DNA of 64,000 nt from Neelides folsomi (lineage: Eukaryota; Arthropoda; Collembola; Neelipleona; Neelidae), in assembly GCA_034687125.1 (NCBI GenBank), contig JAQGBZ010000051.1, positions 124,001-188,000 on the forward strand, read 5' to 3'. Every line of letters starts with the position of its first letter. Positions within the stretch are counted from its first letter, which is position 1. Shown piece by piece: positions 26,348-61,684 of the stretch. The translations under genes were made by a program, and so were the position numbers. The notes under the pieces were generated by a model, which saw nothing but the letters and a program-made list of their open reading frames with translations, had not been told where the DNA came from and did no database searches.

Positions 26348-27079
26348 TTTAATATTACATTATTTATGTTAAAGTTGTAATTTTATAAACGTATGATTAA
26401 ACTCTTTAATTAAAAAATAATTCAAATGGAGTATTTATTGATCATAAATTAATCTTTAATTTAATTACATTAATTAAAATCATATTATATAATATTTATA
26501 AAATCTATTATTAATCTAAATGTAATCTTTATTAAAAAACGTTATTTTTGAATTGGTGCATTACATCGGTCTTGTATGAGTTGCACGAGTTGCATTGTTT
26601 TGTGTGTAAAAACAAGTGGATTGTTTTTGTGCGTACTTTGTATATTTATCATCGTCCCATCTCAATGCATTCGTGTGGTATGTGCTGGCAGCGCGGAAGG
26701 AATCCCTGGGCTCTTTTAACGTCTGGCCAACCAACCTGCTAGTATTTTTCATCTCTCATTTGGATCTCGAGATGTGTTAGATGAGCAGAGGAAGGAAAGT
26801 TGGCAGGGGTTCAGTCCCATTGATTTGATATGTTGAGGGGAGTTGTATGGGGAGAGTCACTTGGTCCCTATCTGTGTGGAAAAGTCTGACGATCTCTCCT
26901 TTGGATATTCATGAGAAGAACAAAAGAAAGTTTAGGCTCTTGCGTTAGTTAATTACAATTGGCAAAGTCCCTTCCCCTGGTCCAATCTCCCTACCCTGAC
27001 CTCTCACCCCGCCCTTGCTCTCATAAGAATGGGAAAATAAAGTGGGGAACCAAGGGGAAGGATTGGGAACACAGGAGTA
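26348..27079. other. Spacer and 5' region of the UBE2Q gene
   Basis: The first 200 nt are AT-rich. From about 26545 the composition becomes balanced and stays so up to the UBE2Q ATG, as expected for its promoter and 5' UTR. Overlapping short frames on both strands (26548-26752, 26945-27298) share this GC patch and show no domain. Confidence 0.5.
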
Positions 27080-38700: not shown

Positions 38701-40146
38701 AAATACGATACGTAATGTTGAATGAATAAGAAGTGTTGGGTGAGATGAGTGAGATGTGTTGGGAGAAAAGTCAATTGTTTCTATTTGGTTTTATTAGTGA
38801 GTAAATATCTGTATCGTAAAAAGTTTTGGTGTTGATGGACCAAGTGAAGATCAAGTGGAGAGTGCCACTGGGGAATGAGAAGTTTCAATTCACTCTTGTT
38901 TACTTTAATACTTTCATTATTACCTATCCTATACCTACTTGTTTTTTGCTATGGATTATGCCATGGCATGGTGTATGAGATATTGTCATATTGGCAAAGT
39001 TTCTCCTTAGAGCTGCATACAACGACTATTACTTAATTTGTCTCATTTTACGACTTTGTTAGCATTAGGACCACCATCTAAACAATCTTTGAATTTTCAA
39101 ACGAAAAAAATCCATAATTGATTTTAGTATATTTTTTGAACCCGGCACTACAATATACAATGATTTAAAAGTTTATATACATATTTACCAAAATTGAATG
39201 ATTGGAACTATTTGTATTTTGCAATTTCCCAATTTAAACAAAAATTGCAATGAAGTCAATGGACTATTGATGTTCAATTGTTTCATTTTTTGTTACATGA
39301 ATTTTATTATTAAAGGAAACAATTAATTTTACCCAACAATATAAAAACTTAATAGAACTGTCAATATAACGAACAAACCCGATTGTCACCATTAATGTGT
39401 TAAATACTAATTGTAATTAGATCATAAAATAAATAAATTATGATCATTTCAACTTTGTGTTAATTGGATTCCTCATTTTCATTCCTACTTTTTTCATTCC
39501 CAATTGCAAATCGTGCAAAGTCGTAAATTTCCTGAGCATTTCCGTACAAGCCCTCTTTTCAGCACATTGAATTAACCTCCCTTGCCTTCCTGTCGGCCTC
39601 AAAGAAACGCAAAAGCACTTTCTGGTCGTCTCATAATGCGACATGACAGCATTCGGGAAATTTTAAAGTAAACCCTCTTAACTTACTTTCCACTTTCGGC
39701 ATTTCTCCATTTCAGTGAGGTTCATACAAAAATAACATGGAATTCTTACCATTTACACACCTCGGATAAACTCCCCACCAAAACAGAATTTCACGCCGAC
39801 CTTTTGGGTTGGAAAAAGTAAAAAGTAAAATATCAGAAAACATCGTTTTTATCTTGTTAGAAAATGCCACCTTGGGGTTGATGAGGACGATTTTACTTCC
39901 CACATCCAACCCATAAATGTCATCCAATTCAATGCCTCGTTCTTTGAATCGATATTTATAATAAAGGTGATTTTACCTGAATACCAATCTACTCATTTGC
40001 CTAATATAATACATGAACTATACATGTATGTATATTTTGCATATCAAGAACATAATATTATACTGTTATGTATTTAGACTATTTTCCTATACCTATAAGT
40101 TGGAATTTATACTTCGTAATTACCTTAATGAATATGGAATTAATAT
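35713..40146. other. Gene-poor spacer
   Basis: About 4.4 kb of mostly AT-rich DNA. Short frames occur on the - strand at 36250-36456, 38086-38280 and 39444-39927. None has a recognisable domain or a complete gene structure. Patches of balanced composition at about 36700-37100 and 39450-39950 are the only places where a small or decayed gene might hide. Confidence 0.4.
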
Positions 40147-42309: not shown

Positions 42310-45300
42310 AATCACTCAAGTTGGCGTTTTCTTAGTTGTCTTTTTTGTTCTTCTCGCAGCTTCCACAAAGAACAAAAACCATAAAAAAGAGGTTCTTAAC
42401 ATTTTATTACATTTCGTATTTGCTTAGCTTTACATTTCAATTCAAAATTAAAAATAATGTTCAAAAATGAATAACAGCTATTGCTTTTTTTCTTCCCTCG
42501 AGCCGTAAAAGGCCATATGCGTGGTTGTGAAGTCTTATTTTCTAAAAAGCCTCAAATATTCACAACCTTTGTTAATTTTCTTCGTTTCTTCTTAATTGTA
42601 TTTAAATGAATAAAAGATTTCATAATTGAAATTGATGCTTGAAATGACTTAATTTTAGGTGAAAATAAGAAACAAAAGGGAAGGAGCATGGACAAAATGG
42701 TCAACTTGGAGTCCTTGTACTCGCAAATGCGGCGGCGGAATCCGGACTCAAACAAGAGATTGTCAGTTGAGGTGATTTCACAATTTATTTTATATTCTAC
42801 ATTATAAAAAACTAATTTCCTTTTCACCTAATTACATATGCTACATAATATAAATTAAACGAGGTATCATTGATGTTCTTGTGATAAACTTCATATTACT
42901 CAGATTGAGATTGAGCTTTAATCTATAAAGGAAATGAGGAGAATTGGAGGAAGATAATCGTTTTGTACTTTTTGATATAAACCATCAAATCCAACCCGCT
43001 GCGTGTAATATCAAAATTAAATGAATGAGACGGAGAGAGAGAGAACTTTTTATTATATGTAAATGAATCTGAGCTTATGTCTCACACAATCTTCTCTTTG
43101 TTTTATTCATTTAATCGTTTCTCATCATGAACCACGAAGGAGAATTGAAGGAAATATGTTTTTTGATCTCATTCAAATTTCATATCAATTCCGTGACTGG
43201 GCTTAATCTGGGGGCCCTTTGGATTATAAAGCAATTTGCTTTCGACTAAATGGCACCTCCACTTACAACCAACTCCCTTACGTATTCCCTATACAATTAC
43301 CTGCCCTTGATTACGCACCTATTCACACACCCCTTGTTTGCTTAATGTCAGAATAAAAAACAAGTGGCTCATCCTAAATTTTTATTTATCACATCCCCAC
43401 AACCCTTCAATTACAGCTTGGCGTATTACCTCGCACTCAATCTGATTTTAAAGATAATTTTAATGTTCTGAAGGGTGCTGGATTTTTTATGGCTTTTACA
43501 AATTTTGATTCATCGTACCTCTACGTGTACAAGTTAAATTTTTTAAATCAATGCAAATTAATGTTTAGTTTGTAATCTTATCTTGATCAATCTCAATCCA
43601 TTATATTTATTGCTTATTTTACAAAAGATCATGTACAAATTTCTTATTCGCACGCTATTGATTGAATTGTTTTTAATGTATAATAATTCACACAAATTGG
43701 TTTATTCAAGAAAATACATTTGAGACATAACAATGGAGGCATAATTACATATTACACTTAAGTTATGAAGTTTTCATAATAAATGAATTTTTAATTTACT
43801 AATATTGACAAGTACTAGTAAATTACTTTTAGGAAAAGGGCAAAAAAAATTATGTAATCTATAAAATATTAATGAAATTTGTTAAAAGATGCAAAAATTA
43901 ATAAATATTTTTAGGCGTTCTCGATTGAAGTCAAAAGATTTTGATGATGGAAAAATATGGAAAAATGTCTCAAGCCGATACTGCGAAGGACACTCAACCA
44001 GACATCATTTGTGCAACACGGATGTAAGTAAAACACAATACAGATATAACTTGTATTTATCAACTCGAATTATTTGGAAATGCTGTAGCAAGTTTAAATT
44101 GAACAAATTATTTTAATAAAAAAATTAACATTTTATGGAATTTCAGATATGCCCCAAAGGGAGTTTGAAATTTCGGGACAGCCAATGCAAAACTTTTGAC
44201 AATAGACCATTCATGGGGAAAGTGTATCAATGGGAATCTTTCATGGATGGTGAGTTGTATGAACACAAAATATTTTCTATCCAGGATTATCTTTTTCCAT
44301 ACTATGTCGTATCAAAAGGTATCAATGACATTTCGCCTCAGTTATATGCATTTGAACTTCCCAATAAACCCATTCTGTACGCAACTAAAGGTCTGTGCCA
44401 AAAAGGATGTCCGTAAAGATTCCCTTTTCTTATCATAATGAAATCATACAGGTTTTTTGATAAATCATATGCTATGCATAAAATATTAATATTTAAATAG
44501 TTCGATTAGATAAGATAGATAGACTTATTCTTTTAATTAGCCTTATAGGGATCCACAATGAAGTGAAGATGTATTGAGGTGATAAAAAGATTCGTGTGTT
44601 TCCCGGAGATTTCAATTTGATTTAACACATGATGAAGGGAGTAAAAAAGAGATGCGGATGGAAGAGGCTAAGTCATGCTCTGTTTACTTCCACTGCAGCT
44701 CTCCATCTATTCCCAAATGTCAACTCATTCTGATGACACGGACAAGAAAAACCTTAACTTTGAAATTACAAAAGGGATGAGATATTATACTTAAACTACT
44801 TATATATTGACTGTAACTTTCTATCTAATATGGATATGATATGTTTGTATATGAATTTGGTTTGATTAATCACGCCTAGACATTGAAAGGATTTCATTGC
44901 CCATTTAATCATAATAAGTCTTTCATAATAAGTTTAATAACTGAATATTCACAACAGGCTTAAAGACGAAAACATTCTCAAGTGTAAAGCTATAATTATT
45001 TATATTGAATAGAATATGAAATGAAACCTTAACACAGTATTAATAGAGCTTATTAGTGAGTTTATATGCCATTGATGTACAGTTAGTATATCAAGAGTTA
45101 ATCACTAATCCATTTTCTATTCAAATTATCAAAGGTTTCCAGGTCCTCGTAAATTATCAATCTCATTCTTGACATTCTGAAAAACTTTTTTTATTAAAAT
45201 ATAATACTTATTTGGTTTATAGGCCATTTGAATATACGATGATAAATTCATAATACTTGACATTAACACATACAAATTCGCAATTATGAATTAATTTATT

Positions 45301-48300
45301 CTTTATATGGTCTTTAGTAGAGTGTACCGTCGTAAGTTTTTATTGTTATTCTATCTTTATTTGGGTTTTTAGTTATTACCATATATTGACTTTTAACTTC
45401 AATAATTTATTAATTATTTTGCAATTTCAGAGAGAAGCCCTTGTTCTCTTACATGTAGAGCCATTGGATTTCGTTTTTTCGCTACACTTAATAAAAGCTT
45501 GATTGATGGGACTTCTTGCGTTACAAACCAAACTTCGGAACTCAGCGTCTGCATCCAAGGCACTTGCATGGTAAGTTCATTTCCTTTGTTAAATAATATA
45601 CAATTCAGCATGAATCAAAACCTATATCTTTAAATGACATAAATATATAAGGTAGATATTTTATATTTATTATTATGTTATGCATGGAGTAAGTAAAATA
45701 AAGAATTTGAGTAAATCAGGTATATCATAATATCCAACATAACTTTAAAATTACAAATATTTAACTACATTTACTTATCACATCTGGTGACAAATACAGA
45801 TGTAGAATCTTGTGAGTGTTGGGAGATTTGTTCATTTTTGACCCTCATTTGAGATGAAAAATTATTTCGATTAACTTTGACATCCGCGAAAGAGGGAGAA
45901 AAAGGCCCCTCTTGAAGCTTCGCCTTGGGGAGAAAATTCAATTGGGACGCTTATTTGGATTACAATTTGACTCGGATGCCTTCTTATAAGAAAATTATCA
46001 AGATTCACTAACATTTATTTTAACATTGTGGACTTTGAACAATTAAAAAATTTCATGTGCAAAATAAAAGTGTGTTGTTTATAAACTTACAAAAATGCAT
46101 TAACGGATTTGAGAAAAAATGAGAAATGTTTTAACTTGATCCATAAGGAAATTGTTGAGGGATTTCTGACGAGCCTTGTGTTGGATATTGGATAAAAGTG
46201 CTGATGGTTGTAAGGGGAGATTAACGACTCATCCAAGGTTCGGTTTAAGTGGAGGGATTTGGTCTCAAATTGAGAAGGGGAGGAAGATAACCATTTGGAT
46301 TACAGGAGAACCCGAGGATCAATTCTCCAATTATCTCTTATATAATACGTACATACCTACTAATATATTATCCTCGTATTAAAATCTTCTATTACTTATT
46401 TTTATTTTACTTCTAATATTGTATTACATAAGTTTATTAAATGTTTTAGTGGTTGGTATATATAGTAAAAGCACATATTATTATAAGGGATACGTTTAGT
46501 CGACATGTTTAAACAATCCTTGGTGTGTGTTTAAGAAAATGAGAAAGAATTAAAGTGTTGTTTCGGGAATTTTCACGCTTCTTTCTACACAGCGGAGACG
46601 GTGACTTTCAAAAGATCTTTAAGGTCCCTTTGACTAGGCATTGTAATTTATAAAGTACTCTTTATGATAATGTGAATTTATGAATGAATGATACATTAGA
46701 AAAGAAACGCATACATGAATTAGACATTTAATTTTTAATATTCCATTTAAGAAGCGTGGAAAGGAATTCGATTACATAAATATTTCATTAATTATGCTTA
46801 TTATTAAATATACCTCTGTAGTATGTATATTGAATTTTTATTATAAAATCTAAATTGTATTAATGGTATATGGAGTATTGAATGGAGAAGATAACTAATG
46901 AAATAATTTACAAATTATGTATAAGGTGATTTATTTTAAAATTAAGGATCAATCATAATTATCCTTCCAAGAGTGAGTGCATGATTGGTGTTAAGAAGTG
47001 TGAGTTTATGTTTATGGTTATGTAACGTTTGTTCTTCGCATTTCCTTTCGCTTTCATTTGCAAACAACCAATGCCATCTTCATCTTTGGGATGTTTGGAA
47101 CGGTTTGCATAACTTTCACACATCCCGGTTGGAAGGCGATAAAAACTAATGTTGCGACGAACGCAAGTTGAAATTCCAATCCCTCGCACAGTATTAACCA
47201 TTTATTAATGACATCTTCTTCACTGTTAAACGGCTGAATCCGAAGAGAGAATAAAATTAACATTCACAAATTGACAATTACAATCAAGGCTAGTAGATAT
47301 GATGTACCTATAATGCGAACTAAAATTAAATTTTTCAATACAAATGTGAGAGTAAAAATTAGGTATGTTAAATACATTTACAATACATTCAAATGGACAG
47401 TCAAATACCAAAGCTGTACATGTACTATATGTATCAAATATAGACCTAATCAATTTAAACTATTGAACTATTGATGAATATAAAATCAAAAAATTCATAT
47501 GTATTTGTTCTTTCAATATTTTTATATGCAAATATGTTAAATATTATTTTAACATTACCTACTTAATTTGCATTATAAATGCTTTCTCTTTGACAAGAAT
47601 GAGAAACGAGAAGGCGTTTTAACAGCTGGAGATAAGTGAAACTAAAATTACTTTACACATTCTTCATAATTTTTATAGGTTAACACCCTCAACGGCCTCA
47701 ACCGAATTATTAAGCCAATTTCGTCTCAATTGAAAAAAATTTGCAAAATATCACGTTTTAAAGTTATGACTCAAATTGTATAAGTACAATGACAAATCTT
47801 TTGTTTTACTCCCTTTTGAATTAGTTATTAAGTAAATTAGGTAATTATAATAGGGCAAAGTTGGTGCCCCAACCCTTAATAGTAGAAAATTCCAGATTCC
47901 AAACTAAACCCTTTCTTGTTAAACTCCTACATGCGACATAAGATCGAAGGTAAAGCTCCATTATTTTAGATACTTTTGATACAAGTCACATCTTCATTTT
48001 CAATATGGTCATTGACGTTGCTATTTTAAATGTGATTTTACTTATATAGAATTGTAACAAGATTGTTAGGAACATTACTTGTAAATTTATAACTGGATAA
48101 TGCATTGATTAAGTCTGAAAGCTCCTTATCTCCCAACAAAACCGCTCTACGACATACTTGTCATTTTACATGCAAATATACAGTGAAGTGAACAAGATCT
48201 AAAAAGCATCTGGTAAACAAGTCCAAAAACCTACATCTATTCATTTATGCAAAATACCAAAATGGAATCAAACAAAAGAAGAAATTAAATTAAATTCTTT

Positions 48301-51300
48301 AATTTGAAATGAATTTCCTTTTAAGCCCATCGTCATATTTTTATCATAAAACAATTACTTTATCCTAACTGGTTTTCCTTTACTGTTACGGTTATATTTG
48401 TATTTAATTAAAGCTATAGATCATAATGAGTTTATGAAAGGCTCCAAAACAGAAAATACAGAAATACCTATATCAGAATAGTTTAAGTGGAGGAGAAAAG
48501 AAATACGATGAAGAAATAGAGAGTTAATTCCTTTGAACCCAAAGGGGGAATAACTGAAAAAGAGGGAAACTCGTGTCAAAATGAGAGACAGATGCGAAGT
48601 GATGGGATATGATTATGAAAGGATGAAGAAGATTCCGAAGGCTTCTTCGCTCCCTTCCCAATAGGGATTTGGACATGTTGGGGGCCCTAAAATGTATTTA
48701 GGACGTAATTCATCATCCTTTATTTATTCCATCCATACAGATTCTCATACTGACTCATACAGAGATTCTCATACAGAGACTCGTACAGAGTTCCTCATAT
48801 TGGCCAAAGGGCCAGAAATAGATCTCTTGTATTTCTCATTAACCTCTCTTCCACCAGATCAACCATGAGACCATGACCGTACATCTAAATTACTTAGTTA
48901 GTTATGCTCATCCCTTCACCCTCACATTTCTCCCTTCTTTCCCAGGGGCATTTGAACACAATTCCTCTTCATGGACTCAATTTCTTATTAAGTACTTCCC
49001 CTTACCTTTACTTAATATGCAATATGAGGTGATGACCACCATGACTAAAAGAATTCTAATTAAAATCATAAAACTCTTCCTACTTCAAAGAAAAGAGCAG
49101 AGAAGAATTAAGATACAGAAAATATCTCTACATTTGGATTGTGTATTTATGTAAACTCAGGTGCTGTGTAGCAGACAAAGGCTTTTTATCTTCTGATATG
49201 GTCAAATGTGAATATCCTGTTCCTCCACTTCTTAAAAAACTAGAATTAATTTGCTTATCCGGGTTCTAATTATTGATAATTCATGGATATACCAAAGGTA
49301 AACAGTAGGTGAAAAAAATACATGAAAAATAACAAAATAAGGAAGTTTGAGGGAATTTATGCAAAGAAAAGCAATAAATGAGATAAATATTATTTTATAG
49401 TAAACAATATAATTTTAAAATTTTAAAGCTTGAATTTTTATGATTCAATTGAGCTTCTCATTTATTGAGAGCTTTGAGACTTAAAGTTGGAAGTTAAGTA
49501 AGAAAAATATTAAAGTAAGTGGTTGTTTGCAGAGAGGTAATAATGAGAAAATGAATCCTTATAAGTCTTTAAATGGATAGTTTTGAAAGTGGAAGAGAGT
49601 GTCGGTGTAATGGGGAAGGAATGACGTTGGCTCGTTCAACTCCGAGTGTGACTTGAACTTATCTTACCAATTACCTCAAGACTTTTCATTTTCATTCAAA
49701 GGCTCCTTTGAGGAAAGTCCTTGAGAAGGAGAGATGTATTATATGCACATAAATACTTATATTACCCTTACAAATGCATATGTAATATGTAAAGTTGGTA
49801 ATGGAAGGTGGCCAGGGGACTTCTTCACAATCTCTCCAACTCCGCAATCCACAAGTTTCATGAATCATCCTTATCTTCCCACATACATGTCTATATTTCC
49901 GATACCTATTCAAAATACTTTATTTATCCTTTATACCTGTATAGGTAAAGGAAGTATAGGTATTCAAATCCTATACACGAATACATATGTATAACAGAAT
50001 GTATAGCAAAAGAGCTAGCCGAGAGAAAACATTCGGTGTGGTGGTTATACTCCTAATCGGGTGCCAATTGTTTTATTGGAATCTCTTATCTTAATTAACT
50101 TCACTTCACCCGATTTTTAAATACAACATGGACCAAATTCGATAAATGTGGAAATTGAGAGGAAATAATGCAGCAGGAGGTGAAATAAAGTTAAGGGTTT
50201 GGTTTTAACTTTTAACTTTACATTTTCCTAGTAATTTAGTTTTTTTAGTTTGAATTCATCTTTCCACGTGTTTCATGTTCATATTTAAATATTGAGTAGA
50301 TGCGTATAAAAAATATTTTTCTTTTGCTCTTCAAAGTGAACTGATCTTCTGTACAAATATCATTTACTGAATCAATTTCAAATTGTTGGATGACTTCCAC
50401 TTAAATACAATTGTTTAGGGATTCATAAATCATAACACATTGTTAAACATCAAATGTTTACATGTAATATGTACAAGTTGAAACTTAAATTACTTAACTG
50501 CTTAAATGACTCTGCGCATCATCTTACATTACATTAAAATCAAAAGCATATCCTTTAACAAATATTGTATGAATATCAAATATTGGATTTTGAATTAAAG
50601 CGTACACGGAGTGAATTTTAGATGAGAGCTTTTGATTGAACCTGTTATGTTACACATCTCATTCAGCAATGCGGAATTAGGAAATGAATGTTGAAGGCGG
50701 GTTTAAGATTTTAATTCGAGTTAGGCCAAAATGCTCGAAAAGTAATTCATATCTCCTTTCAGTTCTTTCATAAAAGGTGTTCAGATCAACTCCCCAGATC
50801 AACTTCAACAAATATGCAATATCCACTCAATAAATTTTATCTGTCCGACTTCAATTACCACTTTGTTACGTGAATCAAAGTGAACAAAAATTTGAAAAGG
50901 AACCTTCTTCATTCCAACTTGATTCAATGTTAAATGATTTCCCCCCAATATTGGGGAGATAGATCATTTTTCATCATGATGAAACAAATTCAAAAAATGG
51001 TTTGATTCAAAAGCAATACGTGCATTTGCTTATATTCAATTTCTTTATTTTTTGAAGCGTGGATTGAATATGTAAATATAACGTTTTTTGCGTGTTCTTC
51101 TTTCTTACAACACTGTAATGGGATTATTTATAAGGAGAAATATGTAACATGACTTTGCATGATTTCTTTCATAAATAAGTAGCAGTTGAGTGGTTTTATA
51201 TATTCTGTGAATAAATCTTTCCCAAACTTTCAAGATTAATAAATTAAATTAACAGAGGTACTTGAACTTTATGAGGAATTTTTGAATTTTGATGGAATAA

Positions 51301-54300
51301 ATGTTGTAAATTATCAAACTCGTCCAATCAACTCTAAAAAGTAAACATGAAAAAGGGATAAAAGTACACACGGTTTGTTGTTTTAAAATAATGTGTGAAA
51401 AGGGCAAAAGCGTTAAAAAAAATCTCACCGTTGTTTAAGTGTGTAATTTCCACTCTGGGTATAATTGCATACATAGAGGTGATTGTAATTGATATGGCTC
51501 GTAGAATAAATTTATTTATAAGAGGAAATTGGCCATGAATGAAAGAGGGTTGGAATAATGAGGCAATTGAAAGAGGAAGCGAACGAGGGATGGAAATCAT
51601 CATAGTTCTAATATAAGAGTATTTTCCTTCTACAGCTACGGGGCACTTCGTTTGGCATGAAATTAATTCAGGTTCATTTCGGCTTTCGAAGCACAACCCT
51701 TTGTTCAATAAATTCCTCTTTCCCAATTCCGAAGACTTTCATGACTTTCATCCGACCTAAACACTTCCATGGATGTGTGAATGTGAAAGAGAATTTCAAC
51801 GTCCGCAACTCTCAAACTTCTATTAATTTTTATTAATTCCTTCACTATGCATAGGATTTACATACTAAAAGTAAGTGTACATGTCTCTATTATGAAGGTG
51901 TATAAAGTTATAAAGAGTTGAAGCTGAGGGAGTTGGCCAGTTCAATTCAACCATTTGGCACGTTCTCTTCTCTCTTCATTTTACTAAAATCCATATCGGT
52001 TAATTTACTGATAGAACTAATCAACTTTAATTATTTAATTAAGATTTTGGATAAAAATAAAGACTTTTGAGGTTTAGGTCATTTAGCATGATTTCCCTAT
52101 TTGCTTCCATTGGTTGAGTTTGAGGAAAGATTGAAGTGTTTGAAGGAAAGGAATATTATTTAGATAGGGAAATCAGTACATGAGAGAGATCCGCACCAAA
52201 CCACGCACCAGGCAGAAAAGACATAAAAAGAGTTGAAAGACAGGAGCTGAGATCAAAAGTGTTTGGGAGTCTCTCGAGATGAGTCAGTTGTGCAGTTCAC
52301 TCAAACTCCCTTGCCATTTCATATACAAAATTAACATTTTGATTCAACCTTCGCTATTATTTAATTTTAATAATTTATTCAATTGTAATTAAATTAATTT
52401 TTTGAATAAATCTTCATTCTACGTTCAAATAAATATTAAATATTGGAACATATTTTTTATAAAATTTAGATAAAATCTTGTTCAAATTGTAATTAAATGA
52501 CAATTTTGAGTAGGAGAGTTTATATTATTATATGAAAGTGTTTAAAGTGTCAAAACTTAAGAAAGTGCAGTGATCAAGTAAAATGCGTGACATATCTGTC
52601 AGTTTGCATTTATATTTCATTTGCATTACCATCCTCTTCTTTATCAATGTAAGTCATTTATATATTTTTATTTAAGGAAAGAGATTTTGCATTTAATTTA
52701 AAATGTATCATAATTTGATAAAAATATTCTACATTAGTTAAAGGGATGAAGTTTAATAAGTAGCATAATAGGTCAAAAGGGGAAATTTTTTGAGTTTTTG
52801 CCTTTCGTCTGAACCCATCATGGGAAAAAAGTTATCTAAAGTTGATTTGATTTGGCATGCAAGTTTAGTGTATGTATACATATTTAGAATTTTAGCTTAT
52901 CGTTAGATTGATTTCGGTTTAATATCAATTATTCGTCGCAAAAAATATGTAAAATTTAATAACAAGTTGGGCTGCAACTTGCAATTTATTCAATCCATTG
53001 CTACGTTGATATATTGGGAAGTTATTACCCTAATCCCTTGTAGATAGGCCGTGGCCTATAGAGAAATTTTGAGTGTTACTCTGCGGCTTATAAATAAGGG
53101 CGGCTTCTATGCAAAGGCCTCCTATATAAGTTTAAAAAATTCTCGATGTATATAATGTATATATTATATGTAAATCATATACAGTTAGTATATGTAATTA
53201 TATACATGCGGCTTATATGCGAGGGCGGCCTATAATCGAGGCGGCCTATCTACAAGGGATTAGGGTACTTTAAAACTGTAAACACGGAAGTAACTTGCAA
53301 TCAATTAACACGAGAGTTATAATAAAATAGAACATAATCTTACATTACAGATGATTCAGATCAGAAATTAATATATTGTTAATCATTAAGTATCATGATA
53401 TGTGGAAATTTGAAATGGGTATGTTTTCAAAGAAGGGTCTGTTTTACAAATCATATTAGTAATCCAGAGTAGGTACCATTTCAATAAATTACTTTTTATA
53501 AAGTACAATATCTAATATCAAAAGGAAAAGGAATAGCTTTATAAAATATTTCTGTAAATAACATTATGCGACAGTATGATACAAGTACAAATATAGCAAT
53601 CATACGAAAGGCGTCTCATCTGCCCTGCCCTGCCTTATGGTTTAATATAACTTATAATGTACATTCATGATATTTTTTGTTCAAAGGGTACTTTACTGTC
53701 TTTACTCTCTCACAGTTTACTCCAACCTCATTACAAATCTATTTTTAAAGAGATTAATTTACTCTTACTCTCTTGTTTAGTACATTAAGAGAATATTAAA
53801 AATATTTATAACAGGTACTTACATATACAGGTATATAACGTGTAGGTATTTATTTTGTAACTATCTACAATTAAAAAAGTTAGTTTTCCTAATAAAGTTA
53901 GCAATGAATTCTTTTTGATTTTTAGTGCTACAAATGCATATACATTATTTACATATAATAGCATTTATATATATTAGTATGTCGTAATATGCAATGCGTA
54001 ATGAAAAATTAATTGTCAATTGAATTCTCAATCCTTCAATGCGGCAGCTTAAGAAGTGGAAAAGACATTAAGACTTATTGTATCTTTATTTATAGTCTTG
54101 CTCATCAAATTGATCATGCATTTCAAGGGAATAAAAATTAAAGTCATCTGAAAGACAATGGAATTGAATGGAAGTTCACAAGTTCATACTTTTGCATACT
54201 TCATTCAAATCCTATCAAAGTTCATTATGCGGCATTGGGGCTTAATTAGCAAAGCAAATAGAGCCATAATTGCAATTCCTCCAAGGAAAAACACATGATT

Positions 54301-57300
54301 TAATGGAAATTTATGCATGAAGGGAAGCCAAATTAAGAAAATGCATTGGATTGGAGATGCAGCCAAAGGGGTGAAAGATGCTAATCATAGAACCAAACAT
54401 TCTTCTAGCTTAATAAACACTTAAAAGTTCATTTAAGGCTATAAAATAAACTTTATGATATAATGTGATACATTTAATATAAATGATATAATTTACTATA
54501 AGTCAGATAAGTTCATTAATTTAGTTATGCAATAAAAATTGTATAATAAAATAAATCACAATGATTTCAAATTGTTTTTTACTTTATTTGCCCTGATAAT
54601 TTATTTCATAAAATAAGTCCTTATATGGATTTTAAATAGAGTTGTATTTCCAATCTACGATCAATATTTAATGGGTTGGATAAACTTGTAAGTTTTTTTT
54701 TGAAATATTTGAATGGTCCTTGTAAGTGTAAAGATGAATTTCTTATAGGTAGGAAGGAAAGAGTCAATTTTTCTTAATATTCATCCCACGAAGATCAAAA
54801 GGTGGGTGGTTGAAGTCACATTTAAAGGATCTGAAATGTGTTGATCCTTCCTTGTGAAGTTGTGATGAGATCGAAATAGGAAATCGTTCCATTACTTTCG
54901 CCCAAACCTCCCAACCCTCATTGGACTTTATTGCCTTCTTCAATAATCCTAATGGCTATGTATAGGTATACAAGCAATTACAACGTCGTTGATAAATCAC
55001 TAAACATGCTCTATTTCACATTCATTTTCGATGACTTAATTTTTTTAACTCTAAAAAAAGTCCTTTGACTCTGAGTCAAATTCCACCAGACCGCATTTTT
55101 ATAAAACTGACCAAGAAGTTAAAGTTGTCCACAATGAATCGAAAAGAGTAAAATCACTGCAGTAAAAGGAACGGGCAACCGTTGGTCGTTATATCTTTAT
55201 AAATTGATGCAAAATTCTAAATGCCCAAATGTAGAATCCGAGGTGAAGAAGCTAGTCATGATGATAAAAGTCCTTAAACATATCTAGAAGGTTGATTGCC
55301 CTTTTACACAAGTCCAAAATATCCGTAATTAAATGATTTATGATGACATTATGAGAAAAAAGACACAATTATAAAATAAATAAATATGTAAAATGGTTTT
55401 TATTAATGTCTTTACTGTATTTCTTAATTTTTATACACTTATAAACTTATAATAAAATGCAATATTTCCATTTAACCTCTTTTAAAATGTTTTTGTCAGA
55501 TAAATATGTAAAAAAATTATAGCCGTAAAAGGAACTCCTTCTAAGATACAAATCAGTACACATGAAATTAAGCATAAATATCAAATATCACATAACTGTA
55601 TAAGAACATTAAAAATTTTATTTATGAATGAGGCTCAAGTTGAGTTGAGGCTTTTTGTTTATTTTTATCCATTTGAGAGAAAATGGGAAATTAAATGTTG
55701 AACATACCAAAGTGAGTTTAATTAGAAGTATGAGTCATTGTGATAAAAACTTGAGTATCCCTCCAAATGAGATTTTAAGAGATGATGAGCATTCTTAATT
55801 AAGTAAACTTCCGTGAGGAGACTGAGAATGAGAATTTTTGTGTAAATTTCCAGCCAATTGGATGTGACGGAATCGCGGGATCCCAACGGCGAGTGGACCG
55901 ATGCGGAGTATGCGGAGGAGATAACTCAACATGTCGCGTCGTTTCTGGGATCTTCACTCGACCACAGGTAGGAAAAAATCTCCCCTTTTCTCATTTGGGA
56001 TAAAGGACCACCTCAATCTTCCCTCGCCTTCCCAACCTCAACACACATATTTAATATACACAAAATTAATCCTTAGCTTCGCCTCGACGTTCTCAAGATA
56101 TTTTTATTTTATGATCTTCCTTCAACCCTTCCTTGGGTCATTTATTTCTTCACCCCACATGGACAAATTCATCGGCTCTTTCCATCTAAATCTCTTCATT
56201 GATTTGTTAACTTAACCAAATCTACACTTTTAATTCTACACTATTTTGCTAAATACAAATATTATTTAACTGACTGATATACTGAATACTGTATACTGTG
56301 ATATCGCTATAATGTGGTATATATCATATCATAAGTACTTGTATGTATTGTATACATGTGAGTATGTATTAGTACAGTATACTGTATTTATGTATGGTTA
56401 TGGTTCTCAAATTCTAAATTCATCCTCGTTGGTTTCGCATGAACCATTTTTGAAAAATCCCCAGCTGTCTCCTTCGGCTCATCACCTTCAAAAAATTTAT
56501 CTCCGATTGAATTACGTATTTGGAAACTTGTAAAACATTCCCTCTTTTGGAGCTTTGGAGCCGCTGGAGTTGATGGACCCACTCGAACCATTGCACACAT
56601 ATGTACTTACAAAGTATTAGTGCTGTTCTCAAATAAATCAATCTACCCGTCCCATAACAAAGAAACGATTACGACGCTTTCGAATCTTCAATTTCTCCTA
56701 ACTTGGTCGTTTTAATCCAAACAATCCCAATATCCAGCAGTGAATTTTCACATTAAAAATAACCTTCACCGACTACAAAACACATATCTATCTTGTATAC
56801 AAATTACGCCTACCTATATACTATATAATATATATAGTATTCTCTTTGACATCTTTACTCTCAATCTCATCTTCAGTCAAAACAATAATTTGAATCCATA
56901 ATTGATTTTATTACTGTTATGAATTACCTACTGGCCTAAACACACTTTAATTATATTATTCTTCATTTTTGACTATCTTAACATCGTTAATGATGATTAA
57001 TGCTTTAATATTTTAAGGTCAGTTTGGCGGTTTGACCAAAATTGAAACCACAATTAGATGTTTTTTCATGATTTATAGTGAAAAATACAATTAAATTATA
57101 AAAACAATACTAATATTGGATTTAATAATTAATTATACTTTTATGAATAAAATGGACATAATCTCACTACCAATATATTTTTATAGCTCCCAGTTGGATA
57201 CAATATGGTCGCACATTTACCAAAAGGAGCTTGTAATTTGAATATAACTCAAATTAGAAAATCGCCCAACTTCCTCGGTAAGTCTTCTATCACATTTAAA

Positions 57301-60300
57301 ACGTAACATAATTCCATTTGAATTATTAGTGTGGTATAATGCATAATTCAAATGTGATAGAACTAATTCTCAATTAGTCATTTCAATAATTACACCCCCA
57401 TAAGTCTCAAGCGGGAATGGGAATTATTTATAAGGGAGTGTTAACAAAAAGAAAGAATTTCCATTTGGCACGTTCGAGACCCACCCTTAAATAGAATTAA
57501 TTCATCTTCACGAACTTCTATTTTTTCCCATTGGATCCACGGAATGGAATGGTTAATAAATGGCCCCTGTCTCTTCCCAGCTTTGCGAAGGAACGACGGG
57601 AGCTTCGTCCTCAATGGCAACTGGGCTATATCTTGGCCAGGGGAGTATGAAGCTGCCGGCGCCAAGTTTCAATACACTCGACAAGATCTCAAGTCACTTG
57701 AGTCAATTGTGGCTTCTGGACCACTTCACGAGCCAATTGACCTTTTGGCAAGTTGATACTTTTAAATATAACCCAATTACTATCCAATTTATTCACTTTA
57801 TGATATTAATACAATAATACTGTAGTACGTATTTACATTGCAAATACGCAACAAAGGAGCAAAATATGAATGCGATCATATCTGTGTATGGGATTTATGA
57901 AGTAAGCTTATTATTCTAATAGGACTTAAAATATATATAATAGGTATTGTACCAACAACCGAATCCTGGAATCAAATATGAATATATGATTCCAATGAGT
58001 GAGGAATCGAGTGGTTCAGTTCATTCAGTAGCTGATCCTTTCCCAAGTGTGAGCCATCAGGGCCATCGGCAAGGAAGTCCTCGATCTCTCATCCCTCCTC
58101 CGTTCAACATTGGTAGTCCGAATAACCTGGTCGGGAATTCGAATCCTAATCCTGTGAACACGATTCCTTCATTTCCCTCCGGGAACTCCGGGACCTCTGG
58201 GGCTGTCGGTGGGGCAGGTGGACTCTTCCCCAGTGACTCGGCAAATGTGTTCAACATACAAAGTTCGGAACGTGGAGGTCTCCAAGGAACTTCGGCCGTC
58301 CCGGGAAATCCACTTCTGGCACATCAAGGGCGAAGACGACACTCTCACCACAATAATAAATTAAACGGTTCATCAGAGAAGAAGTTTCATTGGAAGATCA
58401 CTTCTTACACTAATTGCACTGAACCGTGTGGCGGAGGTAATTTTTTCTATTTCCTTCAATGTGTATTGGAATGACCCGGTCGCCCTAAATAGGAATGAGA
58501 TGGATGTGTGGCATCTTGGAATGTTATTGTCATCATCTCCATATCGGTTCCTATTTCAATTCATGTATCTTCGCTTTTAATTTTTTATATCCATGTATTT
58601 ATATACACTTTGGGTGGCCTTTTATCCTGTTCAATATGCATCTTTTCTAACTAACTTTAAGTTTGTAAATATAATACTTTATACTACATTATATAATATA
58701 ATACAGTATTCCTATTCAAGTATGGATTTTAGTGTGTATAGTTCGTCTACTATATAATATTATATTGCATCTGTCAAAAGGTCATGAATTGAGATAGAGC
58801 TGATCATAATACTTTATTTTTTACAATCCAAGAATTTTTAATAGCGAAGGATTTTTATTAAGGAACACAAAGAGCAATTGTTCGGTGTATTCGGGCATCA
58901 AATGGAACTCCCGCTCCTGACCGCAGATGTTCTGGAGATCAAAAGCCGCTTGGCCAAACCATCCGGTGCAACTTGAAGCCATGTCCTGCAGAGTGAGAAT
59001 TTTATTACATTAATGCAAAATAACTAGCTTTTAAACTTCTATCGAAATTGTATGTTGAAAGCTTCTGACTCTGACGTTACTTTTCAATTTAAACATCTTT
59101 GCCACATTTCAGCCTTTAGTTTAAAATCTTCTAATTTTATCAGAATACCCCCAATAATAAAATTACTTTTACTTATTGTTATTATACCATATTGTTAGTT
59201 AAATGTCCGTTTTGTATTGGCAGATGGATCAGCGGTCCTTGGTCGAGTTGCAGTGAAGGATGCGGCGAAGGCCACCAAACACGAACGGTCCATTGTCAGC
59301 AGAGAGTTTCTCCCAGTTTGACAATGCGTGTGGCAGAAGGGGCCTGTCTCGGAGTCCAACCAGACTCTCGGATGTCGTGCTCTATTAAACCTTGTCATCG
59401 GTGGGAAGTGACTCCTTGGAGCCAGGTGAGACACTCCCATTCATAACTCATCTTCGACGATTCAAACAACCAAAGATTTATGATTTTGATTTATGACCCT
59501 CCCTGTCACCACATTAGGGCGTGTCAGAAATGAAGAACAGGGTCGCACGTCTTTAATTTAACCATGTAATTTAACTACAATTTAACTACAATTTAAATTC
59601 ATCATTTCAGTGCTCAGCACGTTGCGGGAGCGGAATTCGAAGCCGGACGCTTGAATGTCTCACTTCTGAAGGAGATCAAATTGAGTCCAGTGAGTGCGAC
59701 CAAGGAGAAAAACCTTTAGAAATTAGCCCTTGTAATATGGGGCCGTGTCATGGGTTTGAGTGGTTGACGTCGGAATGGTCAAGTGAGTGCTCTCAACCAT
59801 GTGGAGTTGGCATTCAGACCAGACAAGTGGTCTGCTCTGGACCTGGGCCAAAGTCAGAAGATGAAAAGAAGGAAGACGATGAAGAGAATTACTGCGATGA
59901 TCACAAGAAGCCCAGTTGGGAGAGAGAATGTATGAGCGAGAAAACTTGTGCAGACCCAACCTGGTTCACTGGCTCTTGGAGTGAGGTAAAACCAAACAGA
60001 TCAACTTTTTATCTACTTTTTTCATATTTATTTTTACTAACCTTTAACTGATCCACTCCCGTGTAGAAGCTTAAATTTTTCCAAATTCCAATAATAGTAA
60101 GACTATTTAAATGAACTCGTAGTTTATGAATTTTGTAAAATTTAAAATGTTCAGGGTGGACTTAGTCGATTTGCAAGGAATGTATTGACAAATAGCTCAT
60201 GTTCACTCACGCACTGAATAATTTTCTTTTCCATTTGTACGTAAATACTTATGTAATATGTAGAATTTATCAGTAGATGCATAGGTAGATAATTTATATA

Positions 60301-61684
60301 CTTATACTGTAATGATGGTGAATGTGAATGAAGTTTCGCTGTGGAGATTTTATTTTTTAAACCGTTTCGACCAATGTTAAATAAGTTCAATTTTTATGTG
60401 TCTGAAGTCTGAACCAGTCGAAGGAGCTAATTGAAGATAAAATATTAAGACAGACATGAAGCGTTTATGTGCGAAAGGCTTAAATTAAACTTGATTTGGC
60501 TCGCTCTCAAACCGTTCATACATTCGAAGATATGAAGGAGCGGAAAATTTGCTTTACTTAAGAATTACTCAAAAATGAATATTAATTTAATAAACTAATA
60601 GATAATAACTCAAATTTATAAGCAAAAAGTTGACTGATGTGATGACCAATTAATGAACTGCTGATTTAAAAATATTCTTATATAGTAATGAGTGTGTTGA
60701 AAAATTTAATAATTGGAGTCTCTTGATTAATTGAAATATTTAATTTTATATAGAATTATTAATCTATAAAATATAACAATAATTAATATTTTTCAATTTA
60801 AATATTTTTTAGTGCTCGTCGCATTGCGACCCTGGTCTTAAAACCCGCCAAGTTCTTTGTGTTCTCTACAATCGTGGGAAATACAAAATTATTGAAGAAA
60901 CTCTTTGTTCAAAATCCACCCGACCGGCAGACAGAATGGATTGTGAAGAAAATGAAAATTGTACTCCTCGTTGGTTTATCACTGAATGGACAGAGGTATA
61001 ATATATTTCCTCTAATTAATAATTAAATAATGTACTTAATGATATTTAGCAAAAATACAATAATAATTAAAAGATTTAATGTTTTCACAACTTATGAATT
61101 TTTTTCTTTGTTAGTGTTCTGCTATTTGTGGAGGAGGATTCCAAAAGCGAACGATCAGTTGTCGAGATTCAAATCGGACCACAAGCTCCTTTGACTGCTT
61201 GGACAGTGAACGACCATTGGAACGGAGATCTTGTAATGATCATAAATGCACCCTCAACACTCTCTCCCTAGAAGATCAAATCTCATATAATGAAGGAGAT
61301 AATTCAACTTCGGCCTTCTCAGAAACACCCAAACCAGAATTCTTGTCCATTCATTCAGGTTTAAATGGGAATCAAAGCCAAAGTGACCAGAAAAGTCAAA
61401 GCCAAAATGAAGAACCAGAAGGTGAAAGAATAAAAGCATTAACAAAGTTCAGACATTGAAAATAACTTTAAACTTTTCATTATAATTACATTTAATTTAA
61501 AAATTATATTTTATTTTGATCATCTTCAATTGTCATTAAATGTGGTTTTTGTATTTTAGATTGGGGCTGCGAGGACGAGTATCGGAATTGTGCTTTGGTG
61601 GTTCAAGCTCGGCTTTGCAAGTTCAAATATTACAGATCTGTGTGCTGCATCTCTTGTTCTGACAAGAGAGAGATTTCATCTTAA
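42310..61684 (+). CDS. ADAMTS-like extracellular matrix protein (7 TSP1, Cys-rich, spacer, PLAC)
   Basis: A secreted matrix glycoprotein with the ancillary domains of ADAMTS enzymes but no protease domain. Exons: 42310-42391, 42659-42771, 43915-44023, 44147-44249, 45431-45570, 55854-55967, 57187-57277, 57581-57747, 57944-58436, 58863-58992, 59224-59425, 59611-59985, 60813-60995, 61115-61421 and 61560-61684, all phase-consistent, about 910 aa. The start codon exon is not placed. Order: hydrophobic signal core ([15 protein letters not shown]), TSP1-1 ([17 protein letters not shown]), cysteine-rich region ([12 protein letters not shown]), spacer ([15 protein letters not shown]), a Gly/Ser/Pro/His-rich linker, TSP1-2 to TSP1-7 ([22 protein letters not shown] and others) and a C-terminal PLAC domain ([15 protein letters not shown]). 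No Ig domain is seen, so it is nearer the ADAMTSL2/4/6 and Drosophila Lonely heart type than the punctin type. The intron at 57748 is GC-AG and the intron at 45571 is 10.3 kb. Confidence 0.92.
52583..52648 (+). CDS. Candidate alternative first exon (signal peptide) of the ADAMTS-like gene
   Basis: ATG opens a 22-codon frame, [20 protein letters not shown] plus IN, that is a textbook signal peptide. It ends exactly at a consensus donor (AAT|GTAAGT) in phase 0. The next downstream exon (55854) also begins in phase 0, so splicing would give a secreted isoform that starts with the PIGCDG spacer module and lacks TSP1-1 and most of the cysteine-rich region. No other + strand exon lies between. The preceding sequence (about 52230-52320) is less AT-rich, with initiator-like TCAGTT elements. 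It could instead be a chance hydrophobic frame or the first exon of an unrelated nested gene. Confidence 0.55.
53026..53267. mobile_element. MITE with 26-bp terminal inverted repeats, TA target sites
   Basis: The arms 53026-53051 and 53242-53267 are perfect reverse complements, starting TACCCTAATCCCTTGTAG. Counting the outer TA as target duplication, the element is 238 bp long with 24-bp repeats. The interior has no coding frame and carries several copies of a GCGGCCTATA / GCGGCTTATA motif in both orientations. TA duplication plus short non-coding body suggests a non-autonomous Tc1/mariner-type element. Its local GC is clearly higher than the intron around it. Confidence 0.85.
57748..57943 (+). 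other. GC-AG intron in the ADAMTS-like gene
   Basis: The exon ends GACCTTTTG and is followed by GCAAGT, the classic non-canonical donor; the acceptor is TAATAG. Only this GC site keeps phase (57581-57747 closes a codon, and 57944 opens GTATTGTAC). It joins EPIDLL to [10 protein letters not shown], which matches the ADAMTS spacer pattern of ...LLFQxxNPGxxY. Confidence 0.88.

Follow-up and report, generated by a model that had tools for sequence, protein, structure and literature searches.

A candidate alternative first exon, with a putative signal sequence, in a long intron of a Lonely heart/ADAMTSL6-like gene

MADD-4, the punctin of C. elegans, is made in long and short forms that arise from alternative promoters (PMC6920096, PMC7260190, PMC11385328). 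The short form, MADD-4S, is described as comprising only seven TSP1 repeats, an Ig domain and a PLAC domain, without the cysteine-rich and spacer modules (PMC9083331). In Drosophila, Lonely heart (loh, CG6232) is an ADAMTS-like (ADAMTSL) protein with several TSP1 repeats, a central spacer and a C-terminal PLAC domain, and its gene gives two transcripts, A (3081 bp) and the shorter C (2131 bp); during the first and second larval stages LohC is present as well, with a role described as elusive (PMC3708815). The likely orthologue of Lonely heart, ADAMTSL6 (THSD4 in mouse and human), makes two isoforms (PMC3708815), alpha of 145 kDa and beta of 95 kDa, which come from one gene and differ in tissue expression (PMC10850197); ADAMTSL6 also ends in PLAC (PMC8667168). 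Mature punctin (ADAMTSL1) is reported as a short splice variant (PMC10850197).

The window analysed here, a stretch of 64,000 nucleotides with a GC content of 32.5%, lies on a contig of 259,760 bases in the 75.1-Mb genome of Neelides folsomi. The genome's mitochondrial COX1 has TGA within its frame and neighbours frames that by eye are nad2, cox2, atp8 and atp6, which marks it as animal. It carries an ADAMTSL gene that we rebuilt by eye as 14 exons from 42659 to 61684, with frames verified by script. The model yields an 883-residue body with a single stop, located at its end, and is laid out as follows, where the long and short forms are those proposed below.

42659..42771, plus strand: first TSP1 repeat exon, long form (gene model, Pfam)
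43915..44023, plus strand: exon linking TSP1-1 to the cysteine-rich domain (gene model)
44147..44249, plus strand: cysteine-rich domain exon (gene model, Pfam)
45431..45570, plus strand: cysteine-rich domain exon with phase-0 end, long form (gene model, Pfam)
45571..55853, plus strand: phase-0 intron of 10,283 nt, containing the candidate exon (gene model)
55854..55967, plus strand: first exon that would be common to both forms, coding for the final 27 residues of the cysteine-rich match and the beginning of the spacer (gene model, Pfam)
57187..57277, plus strand: spacer exon (gene model, Pfam)
57581..57747, plus strand: spacer exon with a GC donor, GCAAGT (gene model, Pfam)
57944..58436, plus strand: spacer end, linker and TSP1 start (gene model)
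58863..58992, plus strand: TSP1 exon (gene model)
59224..59425, plus strand: TSP1 exon (gene model)
59611..59985, plus strand: TSP1 exon (gene model)
60813..60995, plus strand: TSP1 exon (gene model)
61115..61421, plus strand: last TSP1 and linker (gene model)
61560..61684, plus strand: PLAC domain exon and stop (gene model, Pfam)

The domain order of the model is TSP1, cysteine-rich, spacer, six further TSP1 repeats and PLAC, and by Pfam it shows the ADAMTSL succession of TSP1, cysteine-rich domain, spacer and further TSP1. Pfam matches on the 883 residues include TSP1_ADAMTS (6 stretches), TSP_1 (5), ADAMTS_CR_3 at 88–182, ADAMTS_spacer1 at 185–296 and PLAC at 846–876 (E = 6.4e-11); seven TSP1 repeats can be counted by eye. 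The PLAC match is the only one listed in a whole-genome search. Pfam detects no metalloprotease domain in the model (exons 42659–61684), and no Ig domain is found among the 7 Pfam families listed for it, in agreement with the preliminary description of the locus as an ADAMTSL without Ig. A C-terminal PLAC without an Ig match is the arrangement of the Lonely heart/ADAMTSL6 type, and the lack of any Ig family in the model sets it apart from the MADD-4/punctin (ADAMTSL1/3) type. Neither Loh nor ADAMTSL6 is known to have an Ig domain. The domain set thus fits Lonely heart and ADAMTSL6, but ADAMTSL2 and ADAMTSL4 likewise end in PLAC (PMC8667168) and could be the counterparts by domains alone, which therefore do not prove the assignment. 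One intron of the gene, 57748–57943, is of the GC-AG class (TTTG followed by GCAAGT).

Our measurement of the large intron, 10,283 nt between two phase-0 boundaries, bears out the 10.3 kb reported earlier. Its position in the protein is inside the cysteine-rich domain, after body residue 155 and before residue 156. Exon 45431–45570 ends in CATG, followed by GTAAGT in phase 0, and exon 55854 opens in phase 0 after tttccag, so that the phase fit claimed for the two sides of the intron holds. This intron site may be an old one that did not arise for the sake of the candidate exon. An exon on C288 (L005, G000:C288, minus strand), of ADAMTS type by eye, ends in CVAGKCQ directly before GTAAAA, apparently at the same cysteine-rich border and with a phase-0 donor, which suggests an old site; this exon is absent from the matches of the cysteine-rich profile search (two matches, C445 and C51), and the ADAMTS gene on C445 has no intron at the border and reads through. 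Two paralogues are too few for a firmer statement.

Within this intron lie the candidate exon and a stretch that may serve it as leader or promoter.

52583..52648, plus strand: candidate for an alternative first coding exon; 22 codons including the ATG, with a hydrophobic core and the donor GTAAGT
52284..52582, plus strand: possible leader/promoter stretch, weak; TCAGTT at 52284

The candidate exon starts with ATGCGTGAC and ends with ATCAAT, and GTAAGT follows directly. Reading of sequence and frame upholds what had been described: an ATG at 52583, 22 codons of hydrophobic character, and AAT before GTAAGT in phase 0. An in-frame TGA stands four codons 5′ of the ATG, so the frame of the exon starts at ATG 52583 and does not continue that of exon 45431–45570; a cassette exon is unlikely for this reason. 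The start context is AAAATG, with a purine at −3. With a matrix (PWM) derived from the 12 GT donors of this single gene, the candidate donor scores 7.29, within the 6.15–11.53 spanned by the same donors from which the matrix was built; leave-one-out scores for the gene's GT donors are 2.3–10.2. The donor is unexceptional: of the 489 GT dinucleotides in the intron, 15 equal or exceed its score, a count that includes the candidate donor and the true one at 45571.

The signal-peptide character seen in the preliminary description stands for the hydrophobic core, which is strong (10-residue mean 3.2) yet short; the cleavage site is weak. On an approximate von Heijne matrix, no good site is found in the putative short form: the best scores 2.55, between IGC and DGI, and another 1.25, between CDG and IAG, where the usual cut-off is 3.5. 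Cleavage at either position would take away the first of the cysteines in the part of the cysteine-rich domain that is kept. The signs of a promoter are slight. The TCAGTT at 52284 has the form of the arthropod initiator, TCAGTY, and is one of three TCAGTY on the plus strand of the intron. If transcription begins near 52284–52286, ATGs at 52497 and 52532, each with a short frame, precede ATG 52583. The GC content of 52171–52370, 38.5%, is a level met by 7 of 51 intron bins, and hence not distinctive.

Could an exon of this kind arise by chance? AT-rich DNA favours F, I, L and Y codons, and an AT-rich intron may contain a hydrophobic open frame that ends at a cryptic donor and corresponds to no transcript. 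Our searches indicate that such frames are scarce at the level of the candidate, which is the only plus-strand ATG-to-donor frame found in the intron (12–45 codons, phase 0, seven donor patterns) at every cut tried. Twenty 10-kb stretches of the same genome, read on both strands (400,000 strand-bases), contain no frame that combines a GTAAGT or GTRAGT donor with a hydropathy (KD) of at least 2.5 over 10 residues, and broader donors give two frames, or 0.051 per intron. Among 300 third-order Markov introns the means are 0.01 (GTAAGT, KD at least 2.5) and 0.08 (broader donors). A set of 23 stretches from the same genome (456,000 strand-bases), scored with the 12-donor matrix, contains eight frames with a donor of at least 4 and KD of at least 2.5 (0.18 per intron), two when the donor must score at least 7.28 (0.045 per intron length), and none at that donor level with KD of at least 3.0. 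The rest of the window has one frame at the candidate's donor level, or 0.087 per intron length. At the candidate's level, the chance expectation is thus 0 to about 0.09 per intron; it is higher under lax cuts (0.2–0.6 overall), reaching 0.59 at the laxest (donor at least 2, KD at least 2.0). Because all cuts were picked after the candidate had been seen, we take the chance level as a few per cent.

These figures, together with the poor cleavage site and three further window frames with a donor of at least 4 and KD of at least 2.5 (26576 and 38875 on the plus strand and one on the minus strand), leave a chance origin some weight. Some background frames look like true exons by eye, for example one in L033. 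However, frames with GTAAGT or GTRAGT and sufficient hydropathy are absent from the 400,000 strand-bases, and the candidate precedes a phase-0 acceptor in a type of gene known for short forms. Overall, we regard a chance frame as rather unlikely. That the exon is real and belongs to another transcript, either as part of a small secreted gene nested in the intron and ending there or as a first exon spliced to other sites, seems to us very unlikely. There is room for it, with 3.2 kb of intron 3′ of the exon and longer open frames present, such as the minus-strand frame 51337–51738 of 134 codons; yet none of ten longer intronic frames reaches a Pfam cut-off, and the phase of the 55854 acceptor fits. 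We accordingly set aside a nested gene in the intron on the Pfam result. One of the ten frames has two sub-threshold Pfam matches (E = 0.029 and 0.057), and the 134-codon frame has no Pfam match. A transposon-borne exon was likewise rejected: 52100–52760 and 48401–52600, the stretches covered by a repeat search that skipped very common words, are unrepeated in the genome save for a single further match, some 50 bases long at 87%.

Given its phase, the upstream stop, its standing as the sole candidate in the intron and its fitting donor, 52583–52648 is best read as an alternative first exon that brings a signal sequence of its own. We consider it moderately likely that this exon is the alternative first coding exon of the Lonely heart/ADAMTSL6-like gene, served by its own promoter in the 10.3-kb intron. 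A promoter within the intron would start a transcript shortly 5′ of 52583, which would be spliced from 52648 to 55854. The product would be a 750-residue protein, presumably secreted, in which the new signal sequence is followed by the end of the cysteine-rich domain and then by the spacer, six TSP1 repeats and PLAC. The upstream promoter would yield the long form, of 883 residues plus a signal exon, which includes TSP1-1 and a complete cysteine-rich domain, and the two forms may differ in role. As exon 55854 still codes for the last 27 residues of the cysteine-rich Pfam match, the short form would not begin exactly at the spacer, as had been supposed.

In the Protein Data Bank, the start of the predicted short form matches five distinct sequences, of which four are from ADAMTS13 and one is from ADAMTS5. 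The match to human ADAMTS5 chain 9rwm_A, which has 194 residues, begins at residue 16; a solved chain that starts so near the match suggests that the cysteine-rich end and spacer can be made alone. In ADAMTS13, the four cysteines of this end of the cysteine-rich domain are paired with one another.

The comparison with known systems shifts the closest precedent. The preliminary description had pointed to madd-4, whose long and short secreted forms from separate promoters are indeed in print (PMC6920096, PMC9083331), and alternative promoters are what is proposed for the present gene. MADD-4 differs in having an Ig domain, which MADD-4S keeps, and in the 10 TSP1 repeats of MADD-4L. MADD-4S is without the cysteine-rich and spacer modules, so its start lies downstream of the site considered here, whereas the putative short form would retain the spacer together with some of the cysteine-rich domain. 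Lonely heart and ADAMTSL6 are closer. The two Lonely heart transcripts are 950 bp apart in length, which exceeds the loss of roughly 155 codons and gain of 22 proposed for the present gene, and in ADAMTSL6 the masses of 145 and 95 kDa imply that a larger part is lost. Of the earlier reading, an alternative first exon with a signal survives, and MADD-4 as closest precedent and a start at the spacer do not. The exon itself is probably real, and the split that had been proposed is not new, since long and short forms are already known from these two relatives among PLAC-ending ADAMTSL proteins.

If real, the exon would extend to a further invertebrate the pattern of long and short isoforms seen in PLAC-ending ADAMTSL matrix proteins, and would provide an exact junction for asking whether that pattern is ancestral. 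It would also mark a border inside the cysteine-rich domain, just 5′ of the spacer, as a possible start for short forms. A broader idea, which we hold to be doubtful, is that a two-promoter layout with a short secreted form from the cysteine-rich/spacer border is ancient, common to this gene, Lonely heart and ADAMTSL6 and built on an old phase-0 intron at that border, which the ADAMTS-type exon on C288 seems to share; the short form would organise matrix while lacking TSP1-1 and the greater part of the cysteine-rich module.

Two candidates compete for the first exon of the long form.

42310..42391, plus strand: possible long-form signal-peptide exon; hydrophobic stretch, weak donor (2.2), ATG further upstream
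38875..38970, plus strand: rival long-form first exon, MRSFNSLLFTLILSLLPILYLLVFCYGLCHGM; phase 0, donor score 5.1

The possible long-form signal reaches 5.93 on the same approximate von Heijne scale, against 2.55 for the exon at 52583. Elsewhere in the window, an ATG-to-donor frame at 26576–26677 (plus strand), linked to no gene, has a very hydrophobic core (MSCTSCIVLCVKTSGLFLCVLCIFIIVPSQCIRV) and is followed by a good donor.
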